From Lacrimispora indolis DSM 755 (GTDB lineage: Bacteria; Bacillota; Clostridia; Lachnospirales; Lachnospiraceae): a stretch of DNA of 64,000 nucleotides. Made by a program: the position numbers and the translations under genes. Shown piece by piece: positions 694 through 22,610 of this stretch (positions are counted from its first letter, which is position 1; every line of letters begins with the position of its first letter). The DNA lies in contig NZ_AZUI01000001.1 in assembly GCF_000526995.1 (NCBI RefSeq), positions 2,294,001 through 2,358,000 of the forward strand. Direction: 5' to 3'. The notes beneath the pieces are model-generated. The model saw only the letters and a program-made list of their open reading frames with translations. It searched no databases and had not been told where the DNA came from.

Positions 694-710
694 GTGAAAG
701 GAGAAGAGGT

Positions 711-2342: not shown

Positions 2343-2372
2343 AAAGCAGGTTCTTTGGAGCCTGCTTTTTTT
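2343..2372 (+). terminator. Rho-independent terminator after the two-component pair
   Basis: AAAGCAGG (2343-2350) pairs with CCTGCTTT (2361-2368) around a 10-base loop, and the 3' arm runs into a T tract. Confidence 0.85.
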
Positions 2373-2520
2373 GAACGGACAAAAACAAGTCGGAAAAACA
2401 ATGGAGAATGGTAGCATTATTTACAGCGCAATTCATGGCGGGATTCTATAATAGCAGTATGCCAATAAAAATCCCATTGGGGGACAAAGGCTGAACAAAC
2501 AAAAGGGAGGAGGGGGTGTC

Positions 2521-4029
2521 ATGCCGGAAAAAGGAGAGGTTCTGGTAGAAGTAAAGGACATGTGCAAAAATTTTGGTGTGACGGTTGCGCTGAACCACGT
2601 AAATATCCAGTTCCGCCGCGGGGAAATCCGGGGACTGATCGGTGAAAACGGTTCTGGAAAATCCACAGTTTCTTCCATAATTGCAGGGATACAGCCGGCT
2701 ACCAGCGGAGAGATGATCTATAAAGGAACGGCCTGGAAGCCGGCCAATACCTTAGAGGCGGCCTTAAATGGAATTGGAATGATCGTACAGGAGGCAGGAA
2801 CGATTCCCGGTATCACGGTGGCAGAGAATATTTTTCTGGGAAATTACGGAACATTCAAAAAAGGACCGCTCATTGACCGTGCCAGGATGAATGGTGCAGC
2901 CGCAGAAGCCATGGAACGCGTGGGAATCACAACGATTGATCCTTCCCAGCCGGCGTTCCGCTATGATATGCAGGAAAGAAAGCTCATAGAAATTGCCAGG
3001 GTGATGGCAGGGGAGCCGGAGCTGTTCATTGTGGATGAAACCACCACCGCTCTTTCTCACAGCGGCAGAGCACTGCTGTATCAGATCATGCATGATGCCG
3101 CAGCCAGAAACAAAGCGGTTATCTTTATCAGTCATGACCTTCATGAGCTGATGGAGCATTGTGATACACTTACGATCCTGCGGGATGGTGTCATCATTGA
3201 CAACCTGGAGAAAGCGGATTTTGAGCCGGGGAATATCAAACGCAAGATGGTGGGCCGGGAGGTCAGGGAAGACTATTACCGGAATGATATGGACGGATAC
3301 GGCAGCCAGGTCGTGCTGAAGGCGGACTGCATCACGACCATGAAGGATCTTCTCTGCTTTGATCTGGAACTGCACAAGGGAGAGATCCTTGGGATCGGAG
3401 GTCTGTCTGCCTGCGGGATGCACGGCCTGGGCCGGGCTCTTTACGGTCTTGATGAGGTTGTGGATGGCAAAGTCGTGCTGACAGAAAAAGATGTGGTTGT
3501 CAGGAATGCGGAGGTCGCATTTAACAACGGTATGGGATATGTATCCAAGAACCGTGACCAGGAATCCCTGGAGCTGAATGCGTCCATCGGAGCGAATATC
3601 CAGAGCGTGGGTTATAAGAAGAACCGTCTGTTGGGACCGTTTATATCCGGAAAGAAAGAGCAGAAGTATGTGCAGCTGGTGGTGGATGAGCTGGCTATCA
3701 AGTGCGTAAATATCTGGCAGCCGGTCCGGGCCATGTCCGGCGGAAATAAGCAAAAGGTCGTGTTCGGAAAATGGATCGCGGACGATGCGGATGTACTGAT
3801 CCTGGACTGCCCCACAAGAGGGGTGGACATCGGGGTTAAGGCCTCCATGTACCAGCTGATTTATGACATGAAAAAGAAGGGGAAATCCATTGTCATGATT
3901 TCCGAGGAAATGCCGGAGCTGATCGGTATGGCAGACCGCCTGCTGATTATGAAGGACGGGATGGTGAACGGTGAATTTTTCCGCAGGGATGGATTCCAGG
4001 AACACCAGCTGATCGAATGCATGATTTAA
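2521..4029 (+). CDS. Sugar ABC transporter ATP-binding protein, RbsA/MglA type, with degenerate sites
   Basis: The 502-residue protein has two ATPase domains as in RbsA. Domain 1 has a good Walker A (GENGSGKST, residues 41-49) and Walker B with its glutamate (VDE, D172-E173), but the ABC signature is replaced by a DMQERKLIEIA stretch. Domain 2 has the degenerate P-loop region usual in this family, an intact signature MSGGNKQKV, and a Walker B LILDCPTRG in which the expected catalytic Glu is Cys430. Family role: powers uptake of a monosaccharide or small oligosaccharide through the permeases at 4043 and 6428. A GGGAGGAGG ribosome binding site lies before the ATG. The gene opens an operon continuing to the sulfatase at 7499. 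Confidence 0.9.
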   Translation: MPEKGEVLVEVKDMCKNFGVTVALNHVNIQFRRGEIRGLIGENGSGKSTVSSIIAGIQPATSGEMIYKGTAWKPANTLEAALNGIGMIVQEAGTIPGITVAENIFLGNYGTFKKGPLIDRARMNGAAAEAMERVGITTIDPSQPAFRYDMQERKLIEIARVMAGEPELFIVDETTTALSHSGRALLYQIMHDAAARNKAVIFISHDLHELMEHCDTLTILRDGVIIDNLEKADFEPGNIKRKMVGREVREDYYRNDMDGYGSQVVLKADCITTMKDLLCFDLELHKGEILGIGGLSACGMHGLGRALYGLDEVVDGKVVLTEKDVVVRNAEVAFNNGMGYVSKNRDQESLELNASIGANIQSVGYKKNRLLGPFISGKKEQKYVQLVVDELAIKCVNIWQPVRAMSGGNKQKVVFGKWIADDADVLILDCPTRGVDIGVKASMYQLIYDMKKKGKSIVMISEEMPELIGMADRLLIMKDGMVNGEFFRRDGFQEHQLIECMI

Positions 4030-4042
4030 GGAGGAGAGTAAA

Positions 4043-5047
4043 ATGACTGACATGGCAGCTGTAAAAGAGGCACCCCGGCTACATTTTAATGACCGCATTG
4101 ATATGATTAAGAATAAACGCATGTTCACTCTGGTATTTCCGCTTACCATTCTGCTCCTGATTGTCTTTGCATTTGAAATGGCGACCGAAGGCCAGTTTGT
4201 GAAAGGAAGCGTGCTCAAAGGGGTGTTTGACCAGGCGCTGATCATTGGCACCATGGCAACCGCGGTTTCCTTTATTTATACGACCGGAAATCTGGATATC
4301 TCGGTGGGGTCCGTCATGGGGCTTGGAGCCGTGGCAGGCGCCCTGGTTTACGGCGTCACGGCAAGTGTTGTCCTTATGATCGCTGCTGCGGTCATCGTCT
4401 GTGTATTTCTGATGATGTTTAACTGTACCTTAAGCGTGGTCTTTCATATCAAGACAACCATGGTGGCAATTGTGGTGATGCAGCTTTATAACGCCATCAT
4501 CAGTGAGGTGGTGGGAGCCGATACCCTGAAGGTGGATTTTAAGGTATGCAAGGTTCTGGAAACCGGAGGCTTCCGCTATGGGGCTTTTCTGACCTATTTT
4601 GTGGTTTGCCTGCTGGTTTTCCATTATACGAAGATCGGCCGGCAGCTTCGGTTCATCGGCGGAAATGAAAAATGTGCGGAGCAAACCGGCATGAACCCCA
4701 CCCGCGCCACCTACGTCAGCTTTCTGATGGCAGGGATCGGAGTGGGAATCGCGGCGGTATTTACCATTATCAGAACCGGGAGCGTGGGCAATTCAACTGG
4801 AAACGGCATGGGGATGGATGTAATGCTTGCAACGGTTCTTGGCGGAATGTCCATTTTCGGAGGCGCGAAATCAAACAGCTATTCCGGAATTATCGGTGCG
4901 TTGACGGTTTCCGCCTTAAACAAGGGGCTTTTGATGCTGGGGGTCTCCAGCACCGTAATACAGGGAGTAAGAGGTCTTATATTCCTGCTTCTGGTATTTT
5001 TAAACAGTGAGCGGCCGGCAACCTTACCGTCCCGCCAGCAGTTTTGA
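4043..5047 (+). CDS. Sugar ABC transporter permease, RbsC type
   Basis: The 334-residue hydrophobic protein has about eight to ten membrane segments and the features of the BPD_transp_2 family, including the motif TTGNLDISVGSVMGLGA near residue 75 and a cytoplasmic loop around GNEKCAEQTGMNP that contacts the ATPase. It starts 13 bases after the ATPase gene behind GGAGGAG. It is one of two different permeases of this importer; the other lies after the binding protein at 6428. Together they may form a heterodimeric channel. Confidence 0.9.
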   Translation: MTDMAAVKEAPRLHFNDRIDMIKNKRMFTLVFPLTILLLIVFAFEMATEGQFVKGSVLKGVFDQALIIGTMATAVSFIYTTGNLDISVGSVMGLGAVAGALVYGVTASVVLMIAAAVIVCVFLMMFNCTLSVVFHIKTTMVAIVVMQLYNAIISEVVGADTLKVDFKVCKVLETGGFRYGAFLTYFVVCLLVFHYTKIGRQLRFIGGNEKCAEQTGMNPTRATYVSFLMAGIGVGIAAVFTIIRTGSVGNSTGNGMGMDVMLATVLGGMSIFGGAKSNSYSGIIGALTVSALNKGLLMLGVSSTVIQGVRGLIFLLLVFLNSERPATLPSRQQF

Positions 5048-5075
5048 TTCATAAATAAAAATGGAGGAAAAAATT

Positions 5076-6395
5076 ATGAAAAAATTTTTTGCAGCGTTAC
5101 TGGCGTGCGGCCTTGCATTCGGCCTGACAGCATGCAGCGGGGGAACCCCTAAAAATGAACCGGCGGCAGAATCCCAGGCTGCCACACAGAAAGGGGAAGG
5201 CAATGAAGCTTCAGAAGCAGCGGGAAAGACGCCCCAGGATTTTAAGAAGTTTAAAATCGGTGTTGCAGAGGTTCAGGCCAATGATGAAAGCATTCAGAGA
5301 CGTTCCTATTTTGAAGACTATGTGGCACCCCGGTATAATGTGGAATTTGTGTTCTCCGAACAGGTCTCTGATACGGAAAAGCTTTTGACGTTTATCGAAA
5401 ACTGTGCAGATGCCGGTTGTGATGCGGTGATCAGCTATAACAATGATGATATTGAACAGATGACTCAGGTGTGTCAGGAATACGGAATGAAATATATCGT
5501 GAATACGGTACGCATTAATCCGAAAACTGAGGCGGCTTTTGCAGGCGGTTATGATAATTTTGCGGCCTTTGGCTCCAACCAGACTGCCATCGCGGAAGTG
5601 TTCAGCGACTGGCTGAAGGAAAATGCCAGTGAGGATGGCAGCGAAGGCTTTTTAATATGCAGCGGTCTGGCGTATACCGGAAACCTGCAGCAGACGGAAA
5701 TCACCCAGGCCTGTTTAAAGTCCCTTTCGGAACTGTATGGCCTGACCTATGAAGAGGACTTTGATGCTCTGGTCACCTCAAGTGCCCCCATTGAGGCCGT
5801 CAATGACAAAGGAATCAATATATATGTTTATCCCGGCCATGTGACACGTGTGGAAGGCTATCTCCAGGGGCTGACGGCAGCTCTTCAGACGGGTAAATAC
5901 GGCGTTATGCTGCAGTCCGTCCAGTTATATGACCAGACCGGCGTCATCGTTCAGGAAACAGAAGCAGCCATTGGAAAAGATATCAAGGTGGCAGGCGTGG
6001 CAACCATTGCGGAATCTTTGCATACCGCATTCAAAACAAAGGATCAGTTTGGAAACCCGACCATCAACATGGCAACCGTGAAACCGGTAAGCCTTCTGTG
6101 TGCGGCCGGATTCAGCCAGGCGTATAACCTTCTCACCGGATACGAGAGCGCAACTCTTGCGCCCAACGGAGATGCCGGTATGTTAAATTCCAGCTTATGG
6201 CCTATTACAAAACTGGAAGACCTGGATATTGCAAGCAAATGGGATGTTCCAAAGGGAGACAAGTGGATTGTGGGATATAACATCATCGACAGCATGCTGG
6301 GAATTTACCATCCGGACATTACCAATGGTGATATCCAGTCCATCGTGGATTCCATTACTTACGAATCCACACTGATAAGACTTGGAGACAAATAG
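5076..6395 (+). CDS. Sugar-binding lipoprotein of the Rbs-type importer
   Basis: The start is taken at ATG 5076 because GGAGG at 5063-5067 lies eight bases before it; the in-frame ATG at 5061 lies upstream of that ribosome binding site. The 439-residue product begins with a lipoprotein signal (MKKFFAALLACGLAFGLTAC, lipobox LTAC), then a low-complexity Glu/Ala linker, then a domain with the look of type 1 periplasmic binding proteins (FKIGVAEVQANDES, CDAVISYNNDD). It would sit outside the membrane and deliver substrate to the permeases on either side. The sequence is divergent from ribose or galactose binding proteins, so the ligand cannot be named. Co-transcription with a sulfatase suggests a sulfated or desulfated sugar. 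Confidence 0.85.
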   Translation: MKKFFAALLACGLAFGLTACSGGTPKNEPAAESQAATQKGEGNEASEAAGKTPQDFKKFKIGVAEVQANDESIQRRSYFEDYVAPRYNVEFVFSEQVSDTEKLLTFIENCADAGCDAVISYNNDDIEQMTQVCQEYGMKYIVNTVRINPKTEAAFAGGYDNFAAFGSNQTAIAEVFSDWLKENASEDGSEGFLICSGLAYTGNLQQTEITQACLKSLSELYGLTYEEDFDALVTSSAPIEAVNDKGINIYVYPGHVTRVEGYLQGLTAALQTGKYGVMLQSVQLYDQTGVIVQETEAAIGKDIKVAGVATIAESLHTAFKTKDQFGNPTINMATVKPVSLLCAAGFSQAYNLLTGYESATLAPNGDAGMLNSSLWPITKLEDLDIASKWDVPKGDKWIVGYNIIDSMLGIYHPDITNGDIQSIVDSITYESTLIRLGDK

Positions 6396-6427
6396 GAAAT
6401 GCCTTTCTGGCAAAAGGAGAGGAAACC

Positions 6428-7468
6428 ATGAAAAGCAACATCAGATCATTAAAAATGATACCCTTATTAAAAACCCTGGCAATTCCGTTTATAACATGGC
6501 TGGTCTGCGAGCTGATCGACCGGGCGGCGGCAGGCACGGGAGTTGTTTCCAATATTGCGGATGTAAAGGCGCTGCTGCGTACCCTGCTGACCTCCTTCAG
6601 CTTTGCCCTTGCCATTAACTGCAACTTAACCAGCGGGCGGATGGATTTATCCGCCGGGGCACAGATGTACATGGGCTGTATATTTGGAGGAAATATGGCG
6701 CTCAGCCTGGGGTTTGGAGGCGTGGGGGTCCTGATTCTCAGCATGCTCACCGGTGCACTTTGCGGTTTGCTTGTAGGCGTGCTTTTCGTTCATTTGCGCA
6801 TACTGCCCATGGTGCTTGGACTAGGCGTCAGCCTGGTATTTGAATGCCTTTCCTTCGGCGCATACTCCCAGCAGGGACTGAAGCTGTTTGCAAAGCCGGG
6901 TGTGGAGATATTATCTAATATAGGATTTATCCTGGTGGTTGCCCTCGCATTGGTGGGAGGTGTCACATACCTGTTCCAATACAGCGGATTTGGATATAAG
7001 CGCCGTGCCATCCAGGGAAACCAGAAGCTGGCGGCGGACAGCGGGATAAATATTTATACAAACTGTATTTTATGCTATGTGCTGGCCGGCGCCCTGGTCG
7101 CATGCGCGGGAGTGTTTGACACTGCGTATACCGGCGGGCTCACACCGGTCATGGGCATGACCAGCAATACCCAGGTATTCAAAAACATGTTTCCCATGGC
7201 GCTGGGCTTATTGATCGGTTCCTATTGCCAGAGACCGGTGGTAGGGATACTTCTTGGATCCTTAAGCGTCAAGATACTGACCATGTGTTTATCCAAGCTT
7301 GCAATGGACAGCAGTATGCAGAACATCATTATTTACAGCTTATTTCTGCTGTTAAACGTTTACCGTATGAATGCCTACCGGTTTGATTATGCCAGAGAAA
7401 AGCGGGCGAGGATCCATCTGGCGCAGAATACCCGCAGAGAACGTACGGTGCTTCAGGAATCAGCATAA
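6428..7468 (+). CDS. Second sugar ABC transporter permease, RbsC-like
   Basis: The 346-residue protein is strongly hydrophobic with about eight membrane segments and a family-typical stretch CNLTSGRMDLSAGAQMYMG near residue 60, equivalent to the ISVG motif of RbsC. The cytoplasmic loop has KRRAIQGNQKLAADSGIN, which resembles the ATPase-contacting segment. It follows the binding protein after 32 bases with an AAAGGAGAGG ribosome binding site. It is not a copy of the 4043 permease; the pair probably forms a heterodimer. The C-terminus is basic and cytoplasmic. Confidence 0.85.
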   Translation: MKSNIRSLKMIPLLKTLAIPFITWLVCELIDRAAAGTGVVSNIADVKALLRTLLTSFSFALAINCNLTSGRMDLSAGAQMYMGCIFGGNMALSLGFGGVGVLILSMLTGALCGLLVGVLFVHLRILPMVLGLGVSLVFECLSFGAYSQQGLKLFAKPGVEILSNIGFILVVALALVGGVTYLFQYSGFGYKRRAIQGNQKLAADSGINIYTNCILCYVLAGALVACAGVFDTAYTGGLTPVMGMTSNTQVFKNMFPMALGLLIGSYCQRPVVGILLGSLSVKILTMCLSKLAMDSSMQNIIIYSLFLLLNVYRMNAYRFDYAREKRARIHLAQNTRRERTVLQESA

Positions 7469-7498
7469 GAGACCGGAGAGAGAAAGGAGAGAATCAAA

Positions 7499-9010
7499 AT
7501 GAAAGCGATTATGGTTATGTATGATTCCCTGCGCCGGGATCTGCTTCCCTGCTACGAGGGGCCTGATCCCATGGATCTGCCGAATTTTAAGCGGCTGGCC
7601 GGGCATACGGTTACCTTTGATAAAAGCTATGTCTGCAGCCTTCCGTGCATGCCTGCGCGGAGAGAGCTGCATACCGGCAGAGCAAATTTTCTGCACAGAA
7701 GCTGGGGACCGGTAGAACCTTTTGACGACTCCATGCCGGAGCTGCTTCAAAAGGCGGGGATCCATTCTCATTTAGCCACGGACCATTACCATTACATACA
7801 GGATGGAGGAGCGACTTACTGCGGACGCTATTCCTCCTGGGCCTGTTACCGGGGGCAGGAAAGCGATGCGTGGATCGGGGACTGCACGCCGAGAGGAGAG
7901 GAACAGTCTCCCTATGTGCTCTTAAATGAGAATACACCGGAAATGATAAAAAGGCGGCGCCAAAGGGGCGGATGGAGAAACTTTGCAAACCGTTCCGTGT
8001 TAAAGGATGAAAGCCATTACCCCCAGGCACAGACATTTGCCGACGGAATTGATTTCATAAAGCGCAATGGAAAACACGGCAACTGGTTTTTGCAGATAGA
8101 GACCTTTGATCCCCATGAGCCATTTACATCGCCAAAGGATTTTGAAGGAAAATGGTTTGATCCGGATCAGCCATTCCTGCCGGACTGGCCGCCCTATTCT
8201 CCCGTATCTGAGGATGAAGAAACCGTTGAAAATATGAGGAAAAAGTATTTCTCACTGGCAGAATACTGTGACCACTGCCTTGGGCTGGTTCTGGATGAAA
8301 TAGACAGACAGGACCTCTGGGCGGATACCATGCTGATCGTAAACACGGATCACGGTTTTCTGTTAAATGACCACGGATGGTGGGGGAAGGGCAGCATGCC
8401 CGACTTTGAAGAACTGGTCCACACGCCCCTGTTCATCTGGGATCCGGGAAGCAAAAAGAGAGGGGAGCGGCGCCAGGCCCTGGTTCAGACCATTGACATT
8501 GCCCCCACACTTCTGGATTTCTTTGGATTGGAGATCCCGAAGGATATGACCGGTAGATCACTGCGCCGAACAGTGGCTGAGGACCGGAAGGTGCGCAGCT
8601 ATGGAATATTTGGCTATCACGGAGGGCCTGTGAATATCACGGACGGACAGTATGTGTATATGCGTGCCGTGCAGAACGAGAATATCTGCATGAATGAATA
8701 TACACTGATGCCAACTCATATGGATTCCCTGTTTTCGCCGGAAGAGATGGAGAAGGCAGAGCTGGCTCCGCCCTTTGGGTTCACGAAAAAATGTCCGCTC
8801 CTGAAGATACCCGCCGGCAATACCTTAAGACTTCTGGGAAAGCTGAAAGAAGATGTTCTGTATGATCTTGCAGTAGATGAAGAACAGGAGCACCCGATTC
8901 AGGAGGATGCGGTAAAGAGCCGGATGCTTGGTGCCATGGCACAGCTGTTCAAGGAGAATGAGGCGCCGGACGAGGTGTATGAGCGTTACGGGCTGAAAGC
9001 GGATATGTAA
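7499..9010 (+). CDS. Sulfatase, Cys-type (formylglycine-dependent)
   Basis: The 503-residue enzyme shows the S1 sulfatase signature CMPARRELHTGR, with Cys50 the residue to be oxidised to formylglycine. Metal-ligand motifs include D9 near the N-terminus and NTDHG (D284, H285). A short C-terminal domain follows, as in other S1 sulfatases. No signal peptide is seen, so it should act in the cytoplasm on an imported sulfated sugar. It is the last gene of the Rbs-type importer operon, 30 bases after the second permease. Cys-type sulfatases in anaerobes need a radical SAM maturase (anSME), which is not in this window. The substrate is not predictable from sequence alone. Confidence 0.92.
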   Translation: MKAIMVMYDSLRRDLLPCYEGPDPMDLPNFKRLAGHTVTFDKSYVCSLPCMPARRELHTGRANFLHRSWGPVEPFDDSMPELLQKAGIHSHLATDHYHYIQDGGATYCGRYSSWACYRGQESDAWIGDCTPRGEEQSPYVLLNENTPEMIKRRRQRGGWRNFANRSVLKDESHYPQAQTFADGIDFIKRNGKHGNWFLQIETFDPHEPFTSPKDFEGKWFDPDQPFLPDWPPYSPVSEDEETVENMRKKYFSLAEYCDHCLGLVLDEIDRQDLWADTMLIVNTDHGFLLNDHGWWGKGSMPDFEELVHTPLFIWDPGSKKRGERRQALVQTIDIAPTLLDFFGLEIPKDMTGRSLRRTVAEDRKVRSYGIFGYHGGPVNITDGQYVYMRAVQNENICMNEYTLMPTHMDSLFSPEEMEKAELAPPFGFTKKCPLLKIPAGNTLRLLGKLKEDVLYDLAVDEEQEHPIQEDAVKSRMLGAMAQLFKENEAPDEVYERYGLKADM

Positions 9011-9095
9011 ATCAAACGCGGGAGGGATGCTGAGCATATCGGCATCCTTGCTGCTGCATTTTTGAAGATCATTACGGAAAAATAAGAAGAAATAA

Positions 9096-9122
9096 TTGAC
9101 ATTTGAAGAGCCGGAATATAAT
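9096..9122 (+). promoter_or_regulatory. Sigma-A-type promoter of the isomerase/sulfatase operon
   Basis: TTGACA (9096-9101) and TATAAT (9117-9122) are both perfect but 15 bases apart; a TAATAT at 9119-9124 would give 17. It lies in the 153-base gap after the first sulfatase, directly before the AT-rich motif at 9127. Confidence 0.7.
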
Positions 9123-9126
9123 ATAT

Positions 9127-9148
9127 AATTAATTAAAATAATTAAATA
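9127..9148 (+). promoter_or_regulatory. Candidate ROK-family operator, copy 1
   Basis: A 22-base AT-only motif that matches the motif at 16818-16839 in 19 of 22 positions without gaps. It contains the inverted pair TTAATT-N5-AATTAA. It lies just after the -10 box, where a repressor would block transcription. Assignment to the ROK protein encoded at 20381 is an inference from proximity. Confidence 0.55.
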
Positions 9149-9163
9149 AGTAGGAGGGAAGAA

Positions 9164-10033: not shown

Positions 10034-10047
10034 GGAGGAAATGATTT

Positions 10048-11148: not shown

Positions 11149-11162
11149 AAGGAGCAGAAAAA

Positions 11163-12008: not shown

Positions 12009-12035
12009 TACGTTGGCGGAAGAAAGGACATACAT

Positions 12036-13757: not shown

Positions 13758-13778
13758 GAGCAGCACAGGAGGCCGGAA

Positions 13779-15050: not shown

Positions 15051-15068
15051 CCGGGAAGGAGATGCTTT

Positions 15069-16655
15069 ATGGAAAAAAGGCCGCATATCATTATATTTAA
15101 TCCCGATGAGATGCGCTATGACGGGATGGGGCATATGGGAAATCCTGCAGCGGTGACTCCGTTTCTGGATCGGTTTGCAAAAGAGGAGGCAGTGTCTTTC
15201 CGTTATGCCTTCTGCCAGAATCCGGTGTGCGTGCCCAGCCGATGCAGCTTTTTTACAGGGCTGTATCCTCATGTCCACGGACACCGGACGATGAGTTATT
15301 TACTCCATCCGGGGGAAGAGAATCTGTTTTCCGAATTAAAGGAAGCCGGATATCATATCTGGATGAACGCGAGAAATGATTTGTTTGCAGGCCAGGTCCC
15401 GGGCTGGGCGGAGTCAAATGCAGATGAAATTTTTTACGGCGGAGATATTCCGGCGCCCCCTGGCCCGGAGTGTGACAAAAAAGGGGAGAAAGATAAGTAC
15501 TCCCATTTTGAGGGGCGTTTAAAGCTGGCTGAGGATGGCAGAAATTATAATGGGGACGATGAAGGGGTGGACGCGGCAATCCGGCATTTAAACGCATATG
15601 GCGGAGAAAAGCCTGTCTGCATGTTTTTGGGCCTTAATTTTCCCCATACGCCGTATCAGGTGGAAGAACCTTATTATTCGGCAGTTGACCGGAGTAAGCT
15701 GCCGGAAAGGATCCGGCCGGAGGATTGTACCGGCAAATCCAGAATGGCAGATTTAATCCGTGGGTACCAGCGGATGGATGAATATACGGAAGAGGACTGG
15801 CAGGAGCTTAGAGCGGTATATCTGGGAATGTGCATGAAGGTTGACGCACAATTTCACCGATTATGTGACGGGCTGAAAGAAAAAGGAATTTATGACGACT
15901 GTCTGATCTTCTTTTTCAGTGATCACGGAGATTTTGAGGGAGATTACGGACTGACGGAAAAGGCGCAGAGCTGCTTTGAAGATTGCCTGACCAGGGTCCC
16001 TCTTCTGGTAAAGCCCCCAAAAGGCGGGGTGGACCCCGGTGTCACGGAGTCAATGGCCGAACTGATTGATTTCTATGGGACTGCCATGGACTATGCTGGG
16101 GTGAAGCCGGAACGTACACAGTTTGGCAGGAGCTTACGGCCGGTCCTGGAAAACCGCGGCGTGAAAAACCGGGAGTATGTCTTTTGTGAAGGAGGAAGGC
16201 TGCCGGGGGAATTCCATTGTGACGAATATCATGCCTCCGGCCCGGAAGGTCCGCCCCGGGATTTTGTATACTGGCCCAAAATGATGGCGCAGACAGATGA
16301 TGACGCCCATGCCAAGGGAACCATGATCCGGAGTGAGAAGTACAAATACATCAGCAGGATCACAGGGGAGGATGAGTTCTATGATCTGGAAGCAGATCCG
16401 GGAGAAACCTCCAATCAGATACATAACCCGGACTACTCCCCGCAAATTTCCAGGCTCCGGCTTGAACTGATGCGGTGGTATCAGCGGACCTGCGATGTGG
16501 TGCCTCACAAGCCGGATGACCGGTTTACCCATGAAATGCTCTGGGCAAAGGTGAAGAATATCTGTCCCAAAGACCACGAAAAGGATGTAAAAGAAAAAAT
16601 AAGAGGCGGCATCAAACAGGGACTTCTGTTTCAGTATGTGCGCGGCCTTAAGTAG
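15069..16655 (+). CDS. Second sulfatase, Cys-type
   Basis: The 528-residue enzyme has the textbook sulfatase signature CVPSRCSFFTG with Cys54 as the formylglycine precursor, and the metal motif FFSDHGDFEGDYG (D285, H286). The N-terminal strand IIIFNPDEMRYDGMG carries the first metal-site acidic residues. It lacks a signal peptide and should be cytoplasmic. It differs clearly from the sulfatase at 7499, so two sulfate positions or two substrates may be handled. It is the last gene of the operon; a strong terminator follows at 16699. Maturation needs an anSME encoded elsewhere. Confidence 0.92.
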   Translation: MEKRPHIIIFNPDEMRYDGMGHMGNPAAVTPFLDRFAKEEAVSFRYAFCQNPVCVPSRCSFFTGLYPHVHGHRTMSYLLHPGEENLFSELKEAGYHIWMNARNDLFAGQVPGWAESNADEIFYGGDIPAPPGPECDKKGEKDKYSHFEGRLKLAEDGRNYNGDDEGVDAAIRHLNAYGGEKPVCMFLGLNFPHTPYQVEEPYYSAVDRSKLPERIRPEDCTGKSRMADLIRGYQRMDEYTEEDWQELRAVYLGMCMKVDAQFHRLCDGLKEKGIYDDCLIFFFSDHGDFEGDYGLTEKAQSCFEDCLTRVPLLVKPPKGGVDPGVTESMAELIDFYGTAMDYAGVKPERTQFGRSLRPVLENRGVKNREYVFCEGGRLPGEFHCDEYHASGPEGPPRDFVYWPKMMAQTDDDAHAKGTMIRSEKYKYISRITGEDEFYDLEADPGETSNQIHNPDYSPQISRLRLELMRWYQRTCDVVPHKPDDRFTHEMLWAKVKNICPKDHEKDVKEKIRGGIKQGLLFQYVRGLK

Positions 16656-16698
16656 ACCTCATACTATACCATGATTGGAGTGACCAATCAGCTGGAAG

Positions 16699-16742
16699 AA
16701 ATCCTGCAGAATCATCATGAGTAATGATTCTGCAGGATTTTT
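16699..16742 (+). terminator. Strong Rho-independent terminator
   Basis: A perfect 17-bp stem (16699-16715 with 16724-16740) and an 8-base loop; the 3' arm ends in a short T run. It closes the isomerase/sulfatase operon. Confidence 0.88.
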
Positions 16743-16785
16743 CACGTTAAGGATTTGTGAAAAAAGCACAAAAAAAAGAAATATA

Positions 16786-16814
16786 TTGACAATAATTATA
16801 CACATAGATATAAT
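16786..16814 (+). promoter_or_regulatory. Consensus sigma-A promoter of the MalFGE-type importer operon
   Basis: TTGACA (16786-16791), a 17-base spacer and TATAAT (16809-16814) match the consensus perfectly. So strong a core promoter, followed directly by an operator-like motif, points to repressor control. Confidence 0.88.
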
Positions 16815-16817
16815 ATT

Positions 16818-16839
16818 AATTAAATTAAAAAATTAAATA
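16818..16839 (+). promoter_or_regulatory. Candidate ROK-family operator, copy 2
   Basis: A 22-base AT-only motif, 19 of 22 identical to 9127-9148 and in the same place relative to the -10 box. The nearest regulator gene is the ROK protein at 20381 in the same operon region. Confidence 0.55.
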
Positions 16840-16870
16840 CAACTATAAATTTGGGGAAAAGAGGTGCCTT

Positions 16871-17827
16871 ATGGAAAAGAATGCGGGGGGAAGGGAAGTG
16901 TCTGCGGTCAGGAAAAGAAATAAGCGGAAAGAAGCAATTATTCTGAATGGATGGTGCTGGCTGTTTATGTCCCTGTCATTGATTTTTTATATCCTGTTCC
17001 AGGGATATCCCATTATCTGCAGCATACAGTATTCATTTCTCGACTGGTCAGGATTGACCCATAACGCGGTGTTTATCGGCCTTCAGAATTATGTGGAACT
17101 GATCCATGACAAACTGTTCTGGAATGCATTTTTTAACAGTTTCAAGTATACGGCCATGATCGTGCCGCTGGAGCTGGCAGTTTCCCTGTTTCTCGCTTAC
17201 ATGCTGAACAACGAACGGTTAAGGGGGCGTACGGTTTACCGGACCATGTATTTTATTCCTGTGGTCACCACTGCTTCCGTTGTTGGAATTATTATGATAT
17301 TCCTGCTAGGCGTCCAGGGGCCTGTGAACCATCTGCTGGTGGCATTACATATAAGCAGGACACCGGTCAATTTCCTGGGAAATGCGAAGTTCGCAATGCC
17401 GGCACTGGTGGTCATCTCGCTTTGGAAGGACTGCGGAACATACATGATATACTGGCTGGCCGGTCTGCAGGGAGTCCCGAAAGATGTGTATGAGGCTGCA
17501 ACCGTGGATGGCGCGGGCAGAGGGCAGGTTTTTTTCCATATTGTCCTTCCAATGATCGCACCGGTGGGAGGCGTGATAGCAATCCTCTGTGCCATCAATT
17601 CCCTGAAGGTATTTGATATGATAAAGACGATGACAGAGGGAGGACCGTTTTATGCAACGGATGTAATAGCAACCTACGTTTACCGTATGGCTTTTTCCAG
17701 CGAAGTGGGAATGCCCAGGCTGGGATATTCCAGCGCGGCGGCCCTGCTCTTCGGCGGGGCGGTCATTGCCATCGGTACGGTGTCTAATGTGATCAAAGAC
17801 CGGCTGAACCAAAGACGGATGCAGTGA
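16871..17827 (+). CDS. Sugar ABC transporter permease, MalF/UgpA type
   Basis: The 318-residue protein has six predicted membrane segments, the first at about residues 28-50, and the EAA loop EAATVDGAGRGQVFFHIVLP near residue 212, which docks to an ATPase. It is of the carbohydrate uptake transporter 1 family and forms a heterodimer with the next gene product. No ATP-binding gene is in this operon; as is common in Firmicutes, a shared MsmK-type ATPase elsewhere probably powers it. Confidence 0.92.
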   Translation: MEKNAGGREVSAVRKRNKRKEAIILNGWCWLFMSLSLIFYILFQGYPIICSIQYSFLDWSGLTHNAVFIGLQNYVELIHDKLFWNAFFNSFKYTAMIVPLELAVSLFLAYMLNNERLRGRTVYRTMYFIPVVTTASVVGIIMIFLLGVQGPVNHLLVALHISRTPVNFLGNAKFAMPALVVISLWKDCGTYMIYWLAGLQGVPKDVYEAATVDGAGRGQVFFHIVLPMIAPVGGVIAILCAINSLKVFDMIKTMTEGGPFYATDVIATYVYRMAFSSEVGMPRLGYSSAAALLFGGAVIAIGTVSNVIKDRLNQRRMQ

Positions 17828-17844
17828 ATCGGGAGGTGGTAAAG

Positions 17845-18687
17845 ATGAGCAGAGAGAGAAGGATCCGCAATGGAAAGACGTTGCTTACACATGTAATATT
17901 ACTGGTGATTGGGCTGGCCTGGATTTATCCGTTTTTATGGATGATTTCAGCCTCCTTTAAAAGTCAGAAGGAATTCTTTGACAACAGGCTGGGACTGATT
18001 CCCAAGGAGCCCACCTTTGACAACGTGCTGAGGATCTGGGAGAAAGCCAATTTCGAAACTTATTTTTTCAATACGGTGACTGTTACGGTCTTTGTGGTAT
18101 TGCTGGTGCTGGTCATGACCATGCTTTCCGGATATGCCCTGGGAAGATATGATTTTATCGGGAAAAAGGTGATCATGGCCGTATTTTTAAGCAGCATTGC
18201 CATTCCCATAGTCAGTACCATTATACCTACCTATGAAGTTGTCAAAAGCCTGAATCTGGTAGGCACAAGGCTGGGGCTGATTCTGGCACAGGCAGGCGGC
18301 GCCCACGTTATTTTTCTGCTTCTGTTCTCCAGCTTTTTCAAACAGGTTCCGGGGGAGCTGGAAGATGCCGCAAGGGCGGATGGATGTAATTTTTTTGAAA
18401 CGTTCTTCCACATTATGATGCCCCTGTCCCGTCCGATTGCAACGACGGTCGTCATCATGGAGACCATATGGACCTGGAACGCATTTATGCTTCCTCTGGT
18501 ACTGACCTTAAACAATCCTGCTTCCCGTACATTGGCGGTGGGACTGTATGCCTTCCGGGGAGAAAATACGGTGGACTGGACCGGCATTGCTGCGGGAGGA
18601 ACCATTGCGGTCATACCGATTATTGTATTATTTATTTTTTTACAGCGTTATTTTGTAGAAGGAATTGCCGGAGCGGTAAAAAGTTAG
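17845..18687 (+). CDS. Sugar ABC transporter permease, MalG/UgpE type
   Basis: The start is taken at ATG 17845, behind GGGAGGTGG at 17831-17839; a GTG at 17824 overlapping the previous gene is in frame but lies before that ribosome binding site. The 280-residue protein has six membrane segments and the EAA-type loop EDAARADGCNFFETFFHIMM. It is the partner of the permease just upstream and works with the lipoprotein encoded at 18755. Confidence 0.92.
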   Translation: MSRERRIRNGKTLLTHVILLVIGLAWIYPFLWMISASFKSQKEFFDNRLGLIPKEPTFDNVLRIWEKANFETYFFNTVTVTVFVVLLVLVMTMLSGYALGRYDFIGKKVIMAVFLSSIAIPIVSTIIPTYEVVKSLNLVGTRLGLILAQAGGAHVIFLLLFSSFFKQVPGELEDAARADGCNFFETFFHIMMPLSRPIATTVVIMETIWTWNAFMLPLVLTLNNPASRTLAVGLYAFRGENTVDWTGIAAGGTIAVIPIIVLFIFLQRYFVEGIAGAVKS

Positions 18688-18754
18688 GCGGCGGTAAAAA
18701 GGGAAAAGGCAGCAGCATTCCCTGAAAATATAATAAATAAAGGAGGAGTGGTTT

Positions 18755-20260
18755 ATGAAATTAAAAAAGGCAGGGGCCCTTTCGCTGGCCCTGGTCATGA
18801 CAGCACATGTTTTGACCGGATGTGCAATGCCAAAAACGGGAGGAGGGGGGACAACCGCGGCGTCAAAGGAAGAGACAGCTGCACAGGCGGAGGAAGCCGG
18901 AGAGAAAGCGGGGAAAGAACAGATCACCATAAGAGTTGTGGACTGGAGTGACAGCTCTTTAAAGCGAAGGGAAGAATTTAACAAAAAGTACATGGAGGAA
19001 CATCCTGACATTCAGATCGAATATACGATGCTGACCGTAGACCAGTTTAAAAATACGATTGTGACAATGATAAAATCAGGGGATGGGCCGGATCTGTTTC
19101 CTATTCCGGCAGGCATGACCTTAAGCACGGCCTTAAAGGAAGAATGGTATCAGCCCATGGACGATTACATAACCCAGGAATTCAAGGACAGTGTCGACCC
19201 TGCTGCAGTCAAGGAAGGCATTACCATAAAGGGGGACCAGTGGTATACCATTTCAGAAATCATGCCGGTTGTAAACTGTCTGTTTTTCTACAATAAAGAT
19301 GTGCTGAAAAATGCCGGGGTGAATAAAGTTCCGGAGACCTATGGGGAATTTATTGAGGCATGCAAAAAGATAACGGAAACCGGCGGCGGCCAGGTCTATG
19401 GGCTGGTCGAAGGCGGAAAGCAGCTGAACCGGCTGGATACGCTGGTCCGTTCCTTCGCAGCGGTTGGAGGCGGTAAGATCGCTCCATATTCCAAGGTGCT
19501 TACGGTTGACGGAAAGGCGCCCTATGACAGCGAGGCAGTGATCTCCGCCATGGCCCTGCTGGAACAGCTGGTGGCGGATGGAAGCGTTCATCCGGATACC
19601 GTAAATATCAGTGCGCCGGAAGCGAGGGAATTGTTCGCACAGGGGCAGGCGGGCTTTATCTGCCAGGGAATGTGGTGCATCCCGCCCTGGGAACAGGCGT
19701 ATCCGGATTTGAATTACGGTGTTATGGCGGTTCCCGTGCCTGACGGCGGAGCAAAAGGCGGAGTTCAGCAGGTTGAGCTGGCTCCATGGATGGGAATTTA
19801 TAAGCAGTCAAAACATCCAAAGGAAGCGGCTGAATATCTGATGGCATTGTTCAGTGAGGGAGGCGGTTATCAGTCCGGCTGTGTTTCAGACGGCAATTAC
19901 GTTTCCGTCATTCCCAGCGTGAACGAAAAGCATATGTCTAACGAAGTGATGAAGGAGTATTACGAAGTCGCTTCCGCCCAGGCCAAAGACGTGCCGGAAG
20001 CCACCGCGCGGGATGAGAAGGTCTATGATTTCTATACGGAGGTAAAGGATGTGCAGCCCAGTCTGGGCGCAATCACCCAGGGTGTTCTGGCTCAGAGCAT
20101 CACGGATTATACCGCCGAATTGAAACAGCTGTCTGAAAGATCCACCGCTGAGTGGAAGAGAGCTTCCCAGGCAATCGGCCTTGACTTTGGCGTATTTGAT
20201 TTCCCCAACTGGGATCCGTTAAAAGATTACACGGAAGCGGATTATAAAGAACTGAAGTAA
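18755..20260 (+). CDS. Extracellular sugar-binding lipoprotein, family 1
   Basis: The 501-residue protein begins with a lipoprotein signal (lipobox LTGC at about residues 20-23), a Glu/Ala-rich linker, and then a family 1 solute-binding fold (ITIRVVDWSDSS, NKKYMEEHPDIQIEY, GDGPDLFPIPAG). It is anchored outside the cell and hands an oligosaccharide to the two permeases just upstream. AAAGGAGGAG precedes the ATG. It is the third gene of the operon driven from 16786. The ligand is unknown; the neighbours suggest a modified or sulfated glycan fragment. Confidence 0.92.
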   Translation: MKLKKAGALSLALVMTAHVLTGCAMPKTGGGGTTAASKEETAAQAEEAGEKAGKEQITIRVVDWSDSSLKRREEFNKKYMEEHPDIQIEYTMLTVDQFKNTIVTMIKSGDGPDLFPIPAGMTLSTALKEEWYQPMDDYITQEFKDSVDPAAVKEGITIKGDQWYTISEIMPVVNCLFFYNKDVLKNAGVNKVPETYGEFIEACKKITETGGGQVYGLVEGGKQLNRLDTLVRSFAAVGGGKIAPYSKVLTVDGKAPYDSEAVISAMALLEQLVADGSVHPDTVNISAPEARELFAQGQAGFICQGMWCIPPWEQAYPDLNYGVMAVPVPDGGAKGGVQQVELAPWMGIYKQSKHPKEAAEYLMALFSEGGGYQSGCVSDGNYVSVIPSVNEKHMSNEVMKEYYEVASAQAKDVPEATARDEKVYDFYTEVKDVQPSLGAITQGVLAQSITDYTAELKQLSERSTAEWKRASQAIGLDFGVFDFPNWDPLKDYTEADYKELK

Positions 20261-20284
20261 AACAGAAGAAAATACAGGAAAAAG

Positions 20285-20316
20285 GCAGAGGGTGCAGAGA
20301 AAACGGCATCCTCTGC
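20285..20316 (+). terminator. Hairpin after the binding protein gene
   Basis: GCAGAGGGTGC (20285-20295) pairs with GCATCCTCTGC (20306-20316) with one G-T pair. No T tract follows, so it may be an mRNA-stabilising or attenuating hairpin rather than a full terminator. Confidence 0.4.
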
Positions 20317-20325
20317 TGGTAATAT

Positions 20326-20345
20326 GCGGACTTTTCCGCTATAAT
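20326..20345 (+). promoter_or_regulatory. Possible promoter -10 with overlapping palindrome before the ROK gene
   Basis: TATAAT at 20340-20345 is preceded by the inverted repeat GCGGA-CTTT-TCCGC (20326-20339). No good -35 box is seen. The palindrome does not resemble the AT-rich motif at 9127 and 16818. Confidence 0.35.
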
Positions 20346-20380
20346 AGAAGATACATAAAAGCAGAGTGGAGGAGAGAATC

Positions 20381-21598
20381 GTGGCTGTCCGTGGAAATAA
20401 TCTTCCTAGAGTTAAAAAACAAAATGAAACGCTTATAAAGGAAATCATCTATAAATATGGCCCCATATCCAGAAGCAGGATCGCGGAAATGCTGTCTCTG
20501 ACTCCGCCGACCATAACCACCAATGTTGCATCCCTCATTGAACAGGGGCTGATTCACGAATTTTCTGCGGAAGATTCCGAATGTGAGGAAAGACCCCTGG
20601 GCCGCCGCCCGGTGAAGATCGATTTTATTCAAACCTCCAGATATGCCATTGGGGTAGAGACAAACCCCTATCATACGGCCATCTGCATGCTGGATCTGCG
20701 GGGAAATGAAATCTGCAGCGCCCGCTATGAGCCGCGCAAAGCCGGCTATGAGACAGAGCTGGATTTGCTGGCGAAGAGGATTCATAAGCTCATCCATGAA
20801 AGCGGAGTGGACACTGACCGCATTTTGGGAATCGGGATCGGACTGCCGGGTTTCGTGGAATACCATGCAGGCGTTTTGAGGGAGAGCTTTAACATAGAAT
20901 GGAACAACAAAAATATTGTGCGTGACTTATCCAAAAGAATGGAAATCCCTGTTCTGATCGAAAACAATGCCAGGGTACGGGTGATCGGGGAGGAACTGCT
21001 GAGCAAGACCCTGCGGCCGGAAAGCTTTGCCTATTATCTGATTTCTTATGGAATTGCGTGCCCCATGTTTGTAAAAAGCCGTATGATCACCGGTTCCAAT
21101 TCCATGGCAGGCGAGGCAGGGCATATGGTAGTGAATATGAACGGGCCCAAATGCGATACCTGCGGGCATTACGGGTGTCTGGAAGAGGTGGCAAGTGAGA
21201 GGGCCATAATAAAGCGGTGCAAGGCAGATATAAAAGCGGGCACAGCCTCCATGCTGGCGGAGCTTTGCCCGGATATTGACCTCCTGACCATGAAAGAGGT
21301 CCTGACCGCCCAGGAATGCTTTGATGAGTATGTGATTAAGGTAATGGAGGAGGCAATTGTATATCTTGGAATCGCGCTGGCCAATATCATCAATCTCATC
21401 AGTCCTCCCCTTGTCATCATTGACGGCTATATTATGAAGCTTAACAGGAACAGGCGCCAGCTTCTGGAAGAAACGAGAAAACACATTTTTGCACTGAATG
21501 AGCAGGAAATTGACTTTGAATTTATTGATTTTGATCCGTTTATAGGCGCAAGGGGCGGTGCCGCTTTAGCAATCAAGGAATTGTTTATTAAGGGGTGA
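20381..21598 (+). CDS. ROK family transcriptional regulator
   Basis: The start is put at GTG 20381, behind GGAGGAG at 20368-20374; an in-frame GTG at 20366 would place the ribosome binding site inside the gene. The 405-residue protein has an N-terminal winged helix (residues about 10-65, ISRSRIAEMLSLTPPTITTN) and a C-terminal ROK sugar-binding domain with LGIGIGLPG and the zinc motif CDTCGHYGCLEE. The cysteine spacing is CxxCGxxGC, one residue longer than the usual CxCGxxGC. ROK regulators such as XylR and NagC are repressors relieved by a sugar or sugar phosphate. It likely binds the shared sites at 9127 and 16818. The next gene starts four bases after its stop. Confidence 0.9.
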   Translation: MAVRGNNLPRVKKQNETLIKEIIYKYGPISRSRIAEMLSLTPPTITTNVASLIEQGLIHEFSAEDSECEERPLGRRPVKIDFIQTSRYAIGVETNPYHTAICMLDLRGNEICSARYEPRKAGYETELDLLAKRIHKLIHESGVDTDRILGIGIGLPGFVEYHAGVLRESFNIEWNNKNIVRDLSKRMEIPVLIENNARVRVIGEELLSKTLRPESFAYYLISYGIACPMFVKSRMITGSNSMAGEAGHMVVNMNGPKCDTCGHYGCLEEVASERAIIKRCKADIKAGTASMLAELCPDIDLLTMKEVLTAQECFDEYVIKVMEEAIVYLGIALANIINLISPPLVIIDGYIMKLNRNRRQLLEETRKHIFALNEQEIDFEFIDFDPFIGARGGAALAIKELFIKG

Positions 21599-21602
21599 CA
21601 AA

Positions 21603-22610
21603 ATGAAGACATGGAGAATCGGGGTAATCGGCTGCGGCAGAATCTCTTCTGTTTATACTGCGGCATTTAAAAATATGGAAGAGATAGAAGTCTGCTTTGC
21701 GGTGGATAAAGAATTGGAGCGGGCAAAGAACTTTGCCGGAAGATTTCCGGGATGCGGTTTTTCGGACAGGCTGGAGGACTTACTGGAGCAGGAGCTGGAT
21801 GCGGTCCATGTTCTGACGCCCCATTACCTGCATAAGGAACATGCAATTGCCTGCTTAAATGCAGGCTTTCACGTGCTTACGGAAAAACCCATTGCCATCC
21901 ATTTAGGGGATGCGGACCTTATGACAGAGGCAGCAAAAAGGAATCATAAGCAGCTGGGGGTCATATTCCAGAACCGGTATATTGAAGGGATACGGGAAGT
22001 AAAACGCCTGATAGAGGCGGGGGAATTCGGCAGACTGACCGGCGCCTTTTCCACGTTGAACTGGTGGCGGCCGCCGTCCTATTACGATTGCGACTGGAAA
22101 GGAAGCTGGGAAAGAGAAGGCGGCGGCGTTGTTATTGATCAGGCCATTCACAGCCTGGATCTGGTCCGTTATCTCATGGGATGCGAGCCCGTAAAGGTGA
22201 ATGCAAGCATCGACCGCCGGGTTCTGACAAATATTGAGGTGGAAGATGTGGCGGATGCAGCCATTGTCTTTGAAAATGGCGCCGTATATTCTTTTTTTGC
22301 ATGCAATTATTACACAAGCAACAGTGCCATCCGTGTGGAGATCAGCGGTGAAAACGGTACCGCACTGCTGACCCAGAATGAAGTCCTCATTAAGCTGAAG
22401 GGGAGACCGGAAAGGACTGTGTATCCGGCGGCCGGACCGGATGTTCAGGGCGAGGCTTACTGGGGAAATTATCATGAAGTCCAGCTTCGTGATTTTTACC
22501 GGTGTCTGGAAGAGGGAAGAAAGGTCCCCACGGATCCGGAAGACGCAAAGAAAACCTTGAAGCTGGTTTTGGATATTTACCGCTCTGGAAAAGAAAAGAA
22601 TGCATTGTGA
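21603..22610 (+). CDS. Gfo/Idh/MocA family oxidoreductase, second copy in the locus
   Basis: The 335-residue protein has the N-terminal dinucleotide fold (IGVIGCGRISSVY), the EKP motif in HVLTEKPIA near residue 98 and the C-terminal substrate domain with GGGVVIDQAIHSLDL, where Asp and His are the usual catalytic pair. It is only distantly like the enzyme at 10048. It is translationally coupled to the ROK gene, so it is probably induced by the same sugar. A reaction on a sugar hydroxyl with NAD(P) is expected. Confidence 0.88.
   Translation: MKTWRIGVIGCGRISSVYTAAFKNMEEIEVCFAVDKELERAKNFAGRFPGCGFSDRLEDLLEQELDAVHVLTPHYLHKEHAIACLNAGFHVLTEKPIAIHLGDADLMTEAAKRNHKQLGVIFQNRYIEGIREVKRLIEAGEFGRLTGAFSTLNWWRPPSYYDCDWKGSWEREGGGVVIDQAIHSLDLVRYLMGCEPVKVNASIDRRVLTNIEVEDVADAAIVFENGAVYSFFACNYYTSNSAIRVEISGENGTALLTQNEVLIKLKGRPERTVYPAAGPDVQGEAYWGNYHEVQLRDFYRCLEEGRKVPTDPEDAKKTLKLVLDIYRSGKEKNAL

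Follow-up and report, generated by a model that had tools for sequence, protein, structure and literature searches.

A Lacrimispora indolis gene cluster as a putative front end of a parallel glycolysis for 6-sulfated sugars

A gene cluster of Lacrimispora indolis DSM 755 encodes two importers, two sulfatases, a set of putative glycoside-cleaving enzymes and a paralogue of phosphoglucose isomerase (PGI2). It lies at the left end of a 64,000-nucleotide stretch (contig NZ_AZUI01000001.1, positions 2,294,001 to 2,358,000), hereafter the window. The described systems closest to it are sulfoglycolysis, canonical glycolysis, deglycosylation operons and a GH3 phosphorylase. The enzymes of the sulfo-Embden–Meyerhof–Parnas (sulfo-EMP) and sulfo-EMP2 pathways are YihS, YihV and YihT, and SqvD, SqiK and SqiA, respectively (PMC12890257, excerpts). 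The pathway proposed here would similarly employ an isomerase, a kinase and an aldolase, and yield dihydroxyacetone phosphate (DHAP) and a sulfur-bearing C3 aldehyde, with sulfur-type transporters encoded nearby. In contrast to sulfo-EMP and sulfo-EMP2, which are likened here by enzyme names and not by sequences, the enzymes are paralogs of PGI, phosphofructokinase (PFK), NagA, NagB and triose-phosphate isomerase (TIM), with hexosamine entry and sulfatases, and the substrate is probably a sulfate ester and not a sulfonate. An isomerase, a C1 kinase and an aldolase come together in a single gene set by analogy only, and PGI2 of the host is unlinked to the other members.

The canonical glycolysis of N-acetylglucosamine (GlcNAc) and glucose by NagA, NagB, PGI, PFK, fructose-bisphosphate aldolase (FBA) and TIM has the same expected reaction order, and the paralogs keep the catalytic or metal-site motifs where checked (PGI2, TIM2, NagA2 and FBA2). 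They differ in the replacement of presumed 6-phosphate ligands and in their dedicated clusters with SsuA-type and TauE transporters. Operons with two oxidoreductases and two sugar-phosphate-isomerase-like barrels use oxidation, elimination, hydration and reduction to break down glycosides; examples are GlycDH/AtOGE/AtHYD/Gfo of A. tumefaciens, the operon of strain PUE and the levoglucosan operon of B. smithii (PMC10628242, excerpts). The window contains a set of similar composition, which, unlike these operons, has sulfatases, a GH3 phosphorylase-like enzyme and PGI2 as its neighbors. The GH3 enzyme resembles β-glucoside phosphorylase BglX/BglP (5VQD) over its full length and has an Asp/His dyad, and differs from it in its association with sulfatases and PGI2.

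We propose that the cluster probably, though with considerable doubt, takes up and deglycosylates sugars with a non-phosphate anion on C6, most likely an O-sulfate, and so forms the front end of a parallel ("shadow") glycolysis. As judged from sequence comparison, the solid part of this proposal is a conserved, co-occurring and partly fused set of glycolysis paralogs, with the PGI member in the window cluster and the presumed phosphate sites replaced.

PGI2 and its partner paralogs

PGI2 belongs to the PGI family (PF00342, 61 bits vs a cut-off of 22; Geobacillus PGI 1b0z, E 7e-107) and scores slightly under the cut-off of NCBIfam PRK14097 (427 vs 443 bits). It is the lower-scoring of two PGI genes (42 vs 80 bits) in the host genome, which comprises 6.38 Mb in one contig and is 99.99% complete. 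The columns E274, E276, H295, K409 and R192 are invariant in an alignment that includes the housekeeping copy, and the ESEGK motif is kept; we assume catalytic roles for the Glu of ESEGK, His, Lys and Arg. Relative to 1b0z, INVISKSGTTTEP is replaced by INVIAKNFETLEP. The loop is notable because the substitutions S129A, S131N, G132F and T135L fall in a stretch (S129–T135) that we take to bind the 6-phosphate.

A search of 299 genomes of the family identified PGI matches at E 1e-70 in 215. PGI2 forms a separate group of 12 genes in 11 genomes, 48–100% identical to the window copy, whereas the other proteins among the matches listed are 45% identical to it or lower. All 12 genes encode the loops (V/C)IAKNF(E/Q/S)TL(E/G)PG and GGSN(Q/N)AAR, in place of ISKSGTTTEP and GGSYLGAR, which are present in all 18 housekeeping PGIs compared. 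These 18 came from 20 loci tried among the best-scoring relatives, and not from a random draw; the two that dropped out on filtering (L036 and L047) also keep SKSGTTTEP. Enorma massiliensis has one further PGI2 copy with the same new loop. Since SKSGTTTEP is replaced by AKNF(E/Q/S)TL(E/G)P in 12 of 12 genes, we do not file PGI2 as a glucose-6-phosphate isomerase. One genome (G253) has a second PGI2 copy (L050, 9299-10558; 71% identical to the window copy), located a few kb from CRISPR genes (Cas3-like, Cas5d and Csd1) and about 30 kb from TIM2 and its partners on the same contig.

The neighborhoods of PGI2 in relatives contain paralogs of PFK (PF00365), class II aldolase (PF01116) and TIM (PF00121), a LarA-type protein (PF09861) and an NMT1/SsuA-type ATP-binding cassette (ABC) importer. 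In the host, the partners form a cluster (L085), 0.9 Mb from that of the window:

1383001-1401000: host cluster L085, with NagA2, SsuA importer, FBA2, NagB2, TIM2 and PFK2
1394815-1395384: TIM2 of the host genome, within L085

L085 also encodes TauE, a kinase/regulator pair, the SsuA ATPase and permease, and LacI. NagA2 (nagA, 314 bits, cut-off 226), the SsuA binding protein (173, cut-off 163.5) and PFK2 (pyrophosphate-dependent subfamily PRK14072, 422, cut-off 273) exceed the cut-offs of their NCBIfam profiles, whereas NagB2 (nagB, 103, cut-off 237) and the LarAH-type protein (195, cut-off 740) are under them. In six relatives, SsuA is the only family matched by the binding protein at E 1e-30, and all five TauE proteins tested match PF01925. 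Beside the host NagA2/TIM2 cluster, L070 1-7925 (G000:C1:1375001-1382925) contains genes for a class II aldolase, LacI, a CUT1-type importer and a fucose-isomerase-like protein, together with a gene distantly like those of sulfatases; in L054, PGI2 is flanked by an aldolase and an isomerase gene similar to these.

The sequence changes in the partners were observed, and we assume which of the affected residues of TIM2, NagB2, NagA2, FBA2, PGI2 and PFK2 are 6-phosphate ligands. TIM2 keeps the catalytic N, K, H and E, and has YGGG in place of YGGS and DGGLIALTRF in place of DGGLIGGAS in 15 of 16 open reading frames, those that reach that far; the loop Arg is present in 14 of the 15, and one has His instead. 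The PTGGTP loop is replaced by PVGP in 12/12 NagB2 sequences. In NagA2, HHREPG is replaced by HQH-x-P in 11/11 sequences (HQHFP in the host copy), the metal-site motif HLEGP is kept, and the variable position of DG-x-H is Arg in eight of the 11, Lys in one and another residue in two. FBA2 has QGA(D/E) instead of QCSR, and keeps the Arg of INVDTD-x-R, both in 14/14. PFK2 is changed in the segments around MGR and KYHW...LQR, with K-x-R-x-EKPG-xx-GRAS in 16/18 sequences (missed in L072 and L084); we rely least on this motif, the first pattern for which missed 11 of the 18. Patterns for the GI-N-GH and LarA motifs were uninformative across relatives. The altered NagA2, NagB2, FBA2 and TIM2 motifs are also present in L087, L088 and L090. 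The loss of presumed phosphate ligands, together with the basic residues kept or gained, suggests that C6 carries an anion other than phosphate.

Parts were counted by tblastn, with identity thresholds set family by family, over 30 loci that were chosen for holding PGI2 or TIM2 and some of which share a genome. PFK2 was found in 23 loci, TIM2 in 23, LarA in 22, FBA2 in 18, NagB2 in 16, the SsuABC-type importer in 15, NagA2 in 14, PGI2 in 12 and TauE in 10. PGI2, PFK2 and FBA2 are all present in L055-L058, L060 and L090, and two of the three in L053 and L054. Enorma massiliensis has NagA2, NagB2, the SsuABC-type importer, FBA2, PFK2, TIM2, LarA and PGI2 on both strands of about 13 kb. Other carriers are Lachnospiraceae bacterium 28-4, Pseudoflavonifractor phocaeensis An507, and an Oscillospiraceae and a Spirochaetales assembly (short contigs, with fewer parts seen). 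A TIM2 profile search of wider genomes found at least five TIM2 loci (L086-L090, 58–70% identity) among the 80 matches listed; the remaining 75 are at most 37% identical and share the pattern with ordinary TIM.

At E 1e-40, TIM2 is present in 23 of the 299 genomes, including all 11 with PGI2. Co-occurrence was assessed by Fisher tests (genomes with both, first only, second only, neither) with no correction for kinship or genome size, and the latter may well contribute. The counts are 11/0/12/276 for PGI2 and TIM2 (p 3.8e-14; TIM2 in 11/11 PGI2 genomes vs 12/288 others), 17/4/6/272 for NagB2 and TIM2 (p 2.6e-19; TIM2 in 17/21 NagB2 genomes vs 6/278 others), 10/1/11/277 for PGI2 and NagB2 (p 2.8e-12), 7/13/4/275 for sulfatase 1 and PGI2 (p 5.5e-7) and 8/12/15/264 for sulfatase 1 and TIM2 (p 2.4e-5). 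The 12 TIM2 genomes that lack PGI2 (e.g., G184, G198 and G244; L078-L080) have most of the NagA2/NagB2/PFK2/FBA2/TIM2/LarA set, as would be expected if GlcNAc derivatives were the main substrate and PGI2 an extra entry.

Organization of the window cluster and loci fused with it

The genes from the kinase at the left edge of the window to the end of gfo2 (1..22610) are all on the + strand. Families were assigned by profile matches (Pfam and NCBIfam), and signal peptides and the lipobox were judged by eye.

1..693, +: sensor histidine kinase, 3' part (start outside the window); 53% orthologue in G217, adjoining sulfatase 1
711..2303, +: response regulator with AraC-type output domain; 56% orthologue in G217, adjoining sulfatase 1
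2521..4029, +: sugar ABC importer ATPase, RbsA/XylG type (NCBIfam match)
4043..5047, +: importer permease 1 (rbsC1), RbsC/AraH type (NCBIfam match); 82% orthologue in G217
5061..6395, +: importer substrate-binding lipoprotein (SBP1), signal peptide and lipobox by eye; no NCBIfam match at 1e-10; 72-73% orthologue in G217
6428..7468, +: importer permease 2 (rbsC2); no NCBIfam match at 1e-10; 84% orthologue in G217
7499..9010, +: sulfatase 1, Cys type, C-M-P-A-R, no signal peptide (PF00884, E 5e-37)
9164..10033, +: barA, TIM-barrel metalloenzyme with a fold like AtHYD (2-hydroxy-3-keto-glucal hydratase) (PF01261, fold model)
10048..11148, +: gfo1, Gfo/Idh dehydrogenase nearest levoglucosan dehydrogenase, predicted C3 oxidation (profile and fold)
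11145..12008, +: barB, TIM barrel, H-N-H at strand 5, candidate 3-keto-glycoside β-eliminase; likely start 11163 (alignment)
12036..13757, +: GH3, Asp/His dyad, full-length relative of β-glucoside phosphorylase BglX/BglP (5VQD, E 4e-99)
13779..15050, +: PGI2, PGI paralogue with replaced phosphate loop (PF00342, alignments)
15069..16655, +: sulfatase 2, Cys type, C-V-P-S-R, no signal peptide (PF00884, E 1.4e-32)
16871..17827, +: CUT1-type importer permease 1 (NCBIfam match)
17824..18687, +: CUT1-type importer permease 2; 63% orthologue in G149
18755..20260, +: CUT1-type substrate-binding lipoprotein; weak NgcE-type and CPR_0540-type matches
20366..21598, +: ROK-family regulator, NagC-like but below the NagC cut-off; 74% orthologue in the G046 fusion locus
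21603..22610, +: gfo2, Gfo/Idh oxidoreductase, predicted 3-keto-sugar reductase; 76-77% orthologue in G046

Window genes are fused with the glycolysis paralogs in relatives. In G046, one strand encodes TauE, NagA2, LarA, TIM2, PFK2, gfo2 (76%), ROK (74%), an importer, barA (49%), gfo1 (43%), PGI2, FBA2 and NagB2, followed by an SsuA-type importer; its CUT1-type importer is just 30–36% like that of the window. In G217, one strand encodes rbsC1 (82%), SBP1 (72%), rbsC2 (84%), sulfatase 1 (70%), histidine kinase, response regulator, ROK (53%), PFK2, TIM2, LarA and NagA2. G149 has relatives of the window CUT1 importer (56%, 57% and 47%) 3.5 kb after PFK2-TIM2-LarA-NagB2, and a second CUT1 set (61%, 63% and 42%) at another place with barA, gfo1, barB and PGI2.

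An earlier sequence-only reading had described a large sulfated-glycan locus at 2521-22610. Every gene that it named is there, in one direction, including two different importers, one ribose-type (ATPase, two different permeases and a binding protein) and one with CUT1-type permeases and binding protein. The left limit needs to be extended, because orthologues of the histidine kinase and response regulator (53% and 56%) adjoin the sulfatase-1 orthologue in G217. Conservation of the cluster in relatives, on which that reading depended, was found in G253, where a single 20-kb stretch (L051) contains GH3 (39%), both sulfatases (60% and 73%), PGI2 (68%), gfo1 (53%), gfo2 (54%), barA (59%), barB (38%) and ROK (36%). 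A large glycan is not what the locus points to: since the importers are of the ABC type and the enzymes intracellular, the substrates would be mono- or short oligosaccharides. The reading had listed a PGI homologue, and missed that it is a specialized paralogue tied to a parallel glycolysis encoded elsewhere in the genome.

Directly after gfo2, a chemoreceptor of the MCP family with HAMP and a weak Cache match (22787-24787) may sense the same sugars. The next locus (24980-35262) encodes a sensor kinase, two GH31 enzymes and a binding protein of the MalE type, along with likely permeases. Its second GH31 enzyme is a clear α-xylosidase of the YicI type (1222 bits vs a cut-off of 606), so that the locus is probably one for xylosides or xyloglucan oligosaccharides.

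Deglycosylation enzymes and sulfatases

The two oxidoreductases and two isomerase-type barrels of the window have the composition of a 3-keto deglycosylation cassette. The sequence-only reading had noticed the four genes and overlooked this match. By profile, gfo1 is nearest to levoglucosan dehydrogenase (143 bits, far under the cut-off of 650). The fold model of gfo1 (mean confidence, pLDDT, of 82 from four sequences) also places levoglucosan dehydrogenase at rank 1 (24% identity), with DgpA at rank 40 among the matches listed. The top fold match of barA (pLDDT 80 from four sequences) is an uncharacterised Streptomyces protein, and AtHYD is the third-ranked chain and second distinct protein. 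In barB, H-N-H at strand 5 is present in 3/3 sequences together with D, H and E columns, which were likened by eye only to His132/His134/Asp163/His189/Glu233 of AtOGE (PMC10628242, excerpts). We read gfo1-barB-barA-gfo2, by analogy, as resembling such a cassette, with gfo2 as the predicted reductase. C3-keto intermediates could allow C4 epimerisation, so that galactose-6-sulfate might also enter. A role of these genes in inositol catabolism was rejected, as the IolE and IolG matches are all far under cut-off. Gfo1 was also rejected as a GH188-type NAD-dependent sulfoquinovosidase, since 8QC5, 8QC2 and 8QC6 rank 38, 49 and 50 among the best 50 matches, vs rank 1 for levoglucosan dehydrogenase.

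The GH3 enzyme, to which a NagZ-type loop had been ascribed, is far closer to phosphorylase 5VQD, its best solved match (full length, E 4e-99), than to the YbbD lipoprotein and NagZ entries (E 4e-41), and a NagZ-type role was rejected. Its dyad D-Q-H lies within K-H-F-P-G-D-G-W-E-E-R-D-Q-H. An Asp/His dyad of this type is linked to GH3 phosphorolysis in a review (PMC8950772, excerpts). The enzyme combines the dyad with full-length similarity to a phosphorylase, and may act by phosphorolysis rather than hydrolysis.

Both sulfatases open at the first strand of the catalytic domain, and neither has a signal peptide by eye, in agreement with the earlier description of two distinct Cys-type enzymes (C-M-P-A-R and C-V-P-S-R, both matching PF00884). 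They have the features of S1 formylglycine sulfatases: a PF00884 domain, a C-x-P-x-R site and a maturase in the genome. The host genome has 16 PF00884 matches, the weakest of which is marginal, and two anSME-type maturase genes over cut-off, because of which the Cys-type sulfatases could be matured. The nearest solved entries of the two sulfatases are mixed, those of sulfatase 1 being phosphonate monoester hydrolases and a GlcNAc-6-sulfatase. Both enzymes are predicted to hydrolyze sulfate esters.

Sulfatase-1 matches at E<=1e-100 occur in 20/299 genomes of the family. PF00884 was checked at E 1e-5 in 12 of the 23 TIM2 genomes (the host genome, another of the 23, was counted separately). It had zero matches in G062, which is 97% complete and has PGI2 and TIM2, and 1–9 in the other 11, some of which may be lipoteichoic-type enzymes. 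The maturase anSME had no match at E 1e-60 in 10/23 TIM2 genomes. Given these two absences, the pathway probably does not center on removing sulfate as the sugar enters. The intracellular desulfation after import proposed in the sequence-only reading therefore holds in part: two importers and two signal-less, maturable sulfatases make cytoplasmic handling of sulfated sugars natural, but G062 has the route with no PF00884 match. The window sulfatases look like add-ons: their role may be to take other sulfates off the glycoside before it is cleaved, or to act on a small sulfated product.

Proposed route and competing explanations

We hypothesize that short 6-sulfated glycosides are imported, and that GH3 or gfo1-barB-barA-gfo2 would free a 6-sulfo-hexose, while the sulfatases would take off other sulfates or act on small products. 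PGI2 would convert glucose-6-sulfate to fructose-6-sulfate, a point to which NagA2 and NagB2 would also take GlcNAc-6-sulfate. PFK2 would then phosphorylate C1, and FBA2 would produce DHAP, which would enter glycolysis, and glyceraldehyde-3-sulfate. TIM2 and the LarA homologue would process the triose sulfate, and TauE would export the sulfur product. The proposal is weakest in what it says of the sulfate's fate. The SsuA-type importer, TauE and the sulfatases favor sulfate or sulfonate as the C6 group, and NagA2 and NagB2 favor sulfate over sulfonate; sulfate is the likely C6 group on these sequence grounds. In its full form, which we put forward tentatively as possible rather than probable, this would be an O-sulfate glycolysis: GlcNAc-6-sulfate and hexose-6-sulfates would be burned with the sulfate unremoved and standing in for the 6-phosphate during deacetylation, deamination, isomerisation, C1 phosphorylation and aldol cleavage. 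The sulfate would either be exported or come off once trioses have formed, whether TIM2 eliminates it to give methylglyoxal or the LarA homologue takes part, and even species without a sulfatase would be able to use sulfated sugars of the animal host. Literature searches, with most subscription papers outside their coverage, found no description of GlcNAc-6-sulfate or sulfate-ester glycolysis or of its enzyme set.

Several observations weigh against the proposal. The two clusters of the host are 0.9 Mb apart, the partners are missing around PGI2 in L050 and, apart from the SsuABC-type importer, in L052, and barB was not found in the G046 fusion locus. Of the 23 TIM2 genomes, 12 lack PGI2 and six have no NagB2 match at E 1e-60, and TIM2 is absent from 12 of the 20 genomes with sulfatase-1 matches. 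A sulfate carried through the route leaves both sulfatases in need of another target. All six binding proteins of relatives score under the SsuA cut-off (120–145 vs 163.5), and the host NagB2 has GINGH in place of GNDGH, a change in the catalytic region. Of 113 sites conserved at 90% in both PGI groups, 26 differ, five of them in the 11-residue loop (p 0.075; a crude test, with all 11 loop sites taken as conserved), so that by this count the loop is not significantly special among the fixed differences. A Glu gained in the PGI2 loop in 10/12 genes is odd beside an anion and is left unexplained.

A parallel route for sulfonated sugars (C-bound sulfonate at C6, as in sulfoquinovose), an unrecognized sulfoglycolysis with PGI, PFK, aldolase and TIM paralogs, would account for the SsuA-type importer and TauE, and known sulfo-EMP pathways also use an isomerase, a kinase and an aldolase (PMC12890257, excerpts). 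We consider it unlikely, as NagA2 (nagA, 314 bits vs 226) and NagB2 imply an N-acetylhexosamine, and the window encodes two enzymes of the O-sulfatase family. We know of no natural 6-sulfonated GlcNAc, and a sulfonate would offer O-sulfatases no bond to cleave. That the window PGI2 acts on sulfoquinovose fits poorly with NagA2/NagB2 and the sulfatases, and is kept within this alternative.

It is likewise improbable that the C6 group is a carboxylate (uronate), neutral or absent, and the route a glycolysis of unphosphorylated or uronate-type sugars. The loss of phosphate ligands alone does not name their replacement, and the Glu in the PGI2 loop of 10/12 genes is odd for an anion; however, basic residues are kept or gained in FBA2, NagA2 and TIM2, and sulfur-type transporters and sulfatases share the loci. 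Least probable are ordinary isoenzymes, diverged and condition-specific 6-phosphate copies beside a plain sulfated-oligosaccharide locus in which the sulfatases act first: the intact catalytic residues of PGI2 and TIM2, the two maturable sulfatases and the crude count by which the loop is no significant hot spot are in its favor, but the presumed 6-phosphate site is altered in PGI2, NagA2, NagB2, FBA2 and TIM2, with each clade conserving its own change, G062 has the route and no sulfatase match, and TIM2, in 23/299 genomes, tracks the other paralogs.

In the usual view, sulfate groups shield mucin and other glycans of the animal host, in that a sulfatase must act before the sugar is eaten. If the O-sulfate route proposed here is true, a C6 sulfate carried through glycolysis would bypass this protection, and gut bacteria that lack sulfatases would have a means of using GlcNAc-6-sulfate. 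It would also mean that a number of central metabolic enzymes were re-tooled in parallel at the same functional site.

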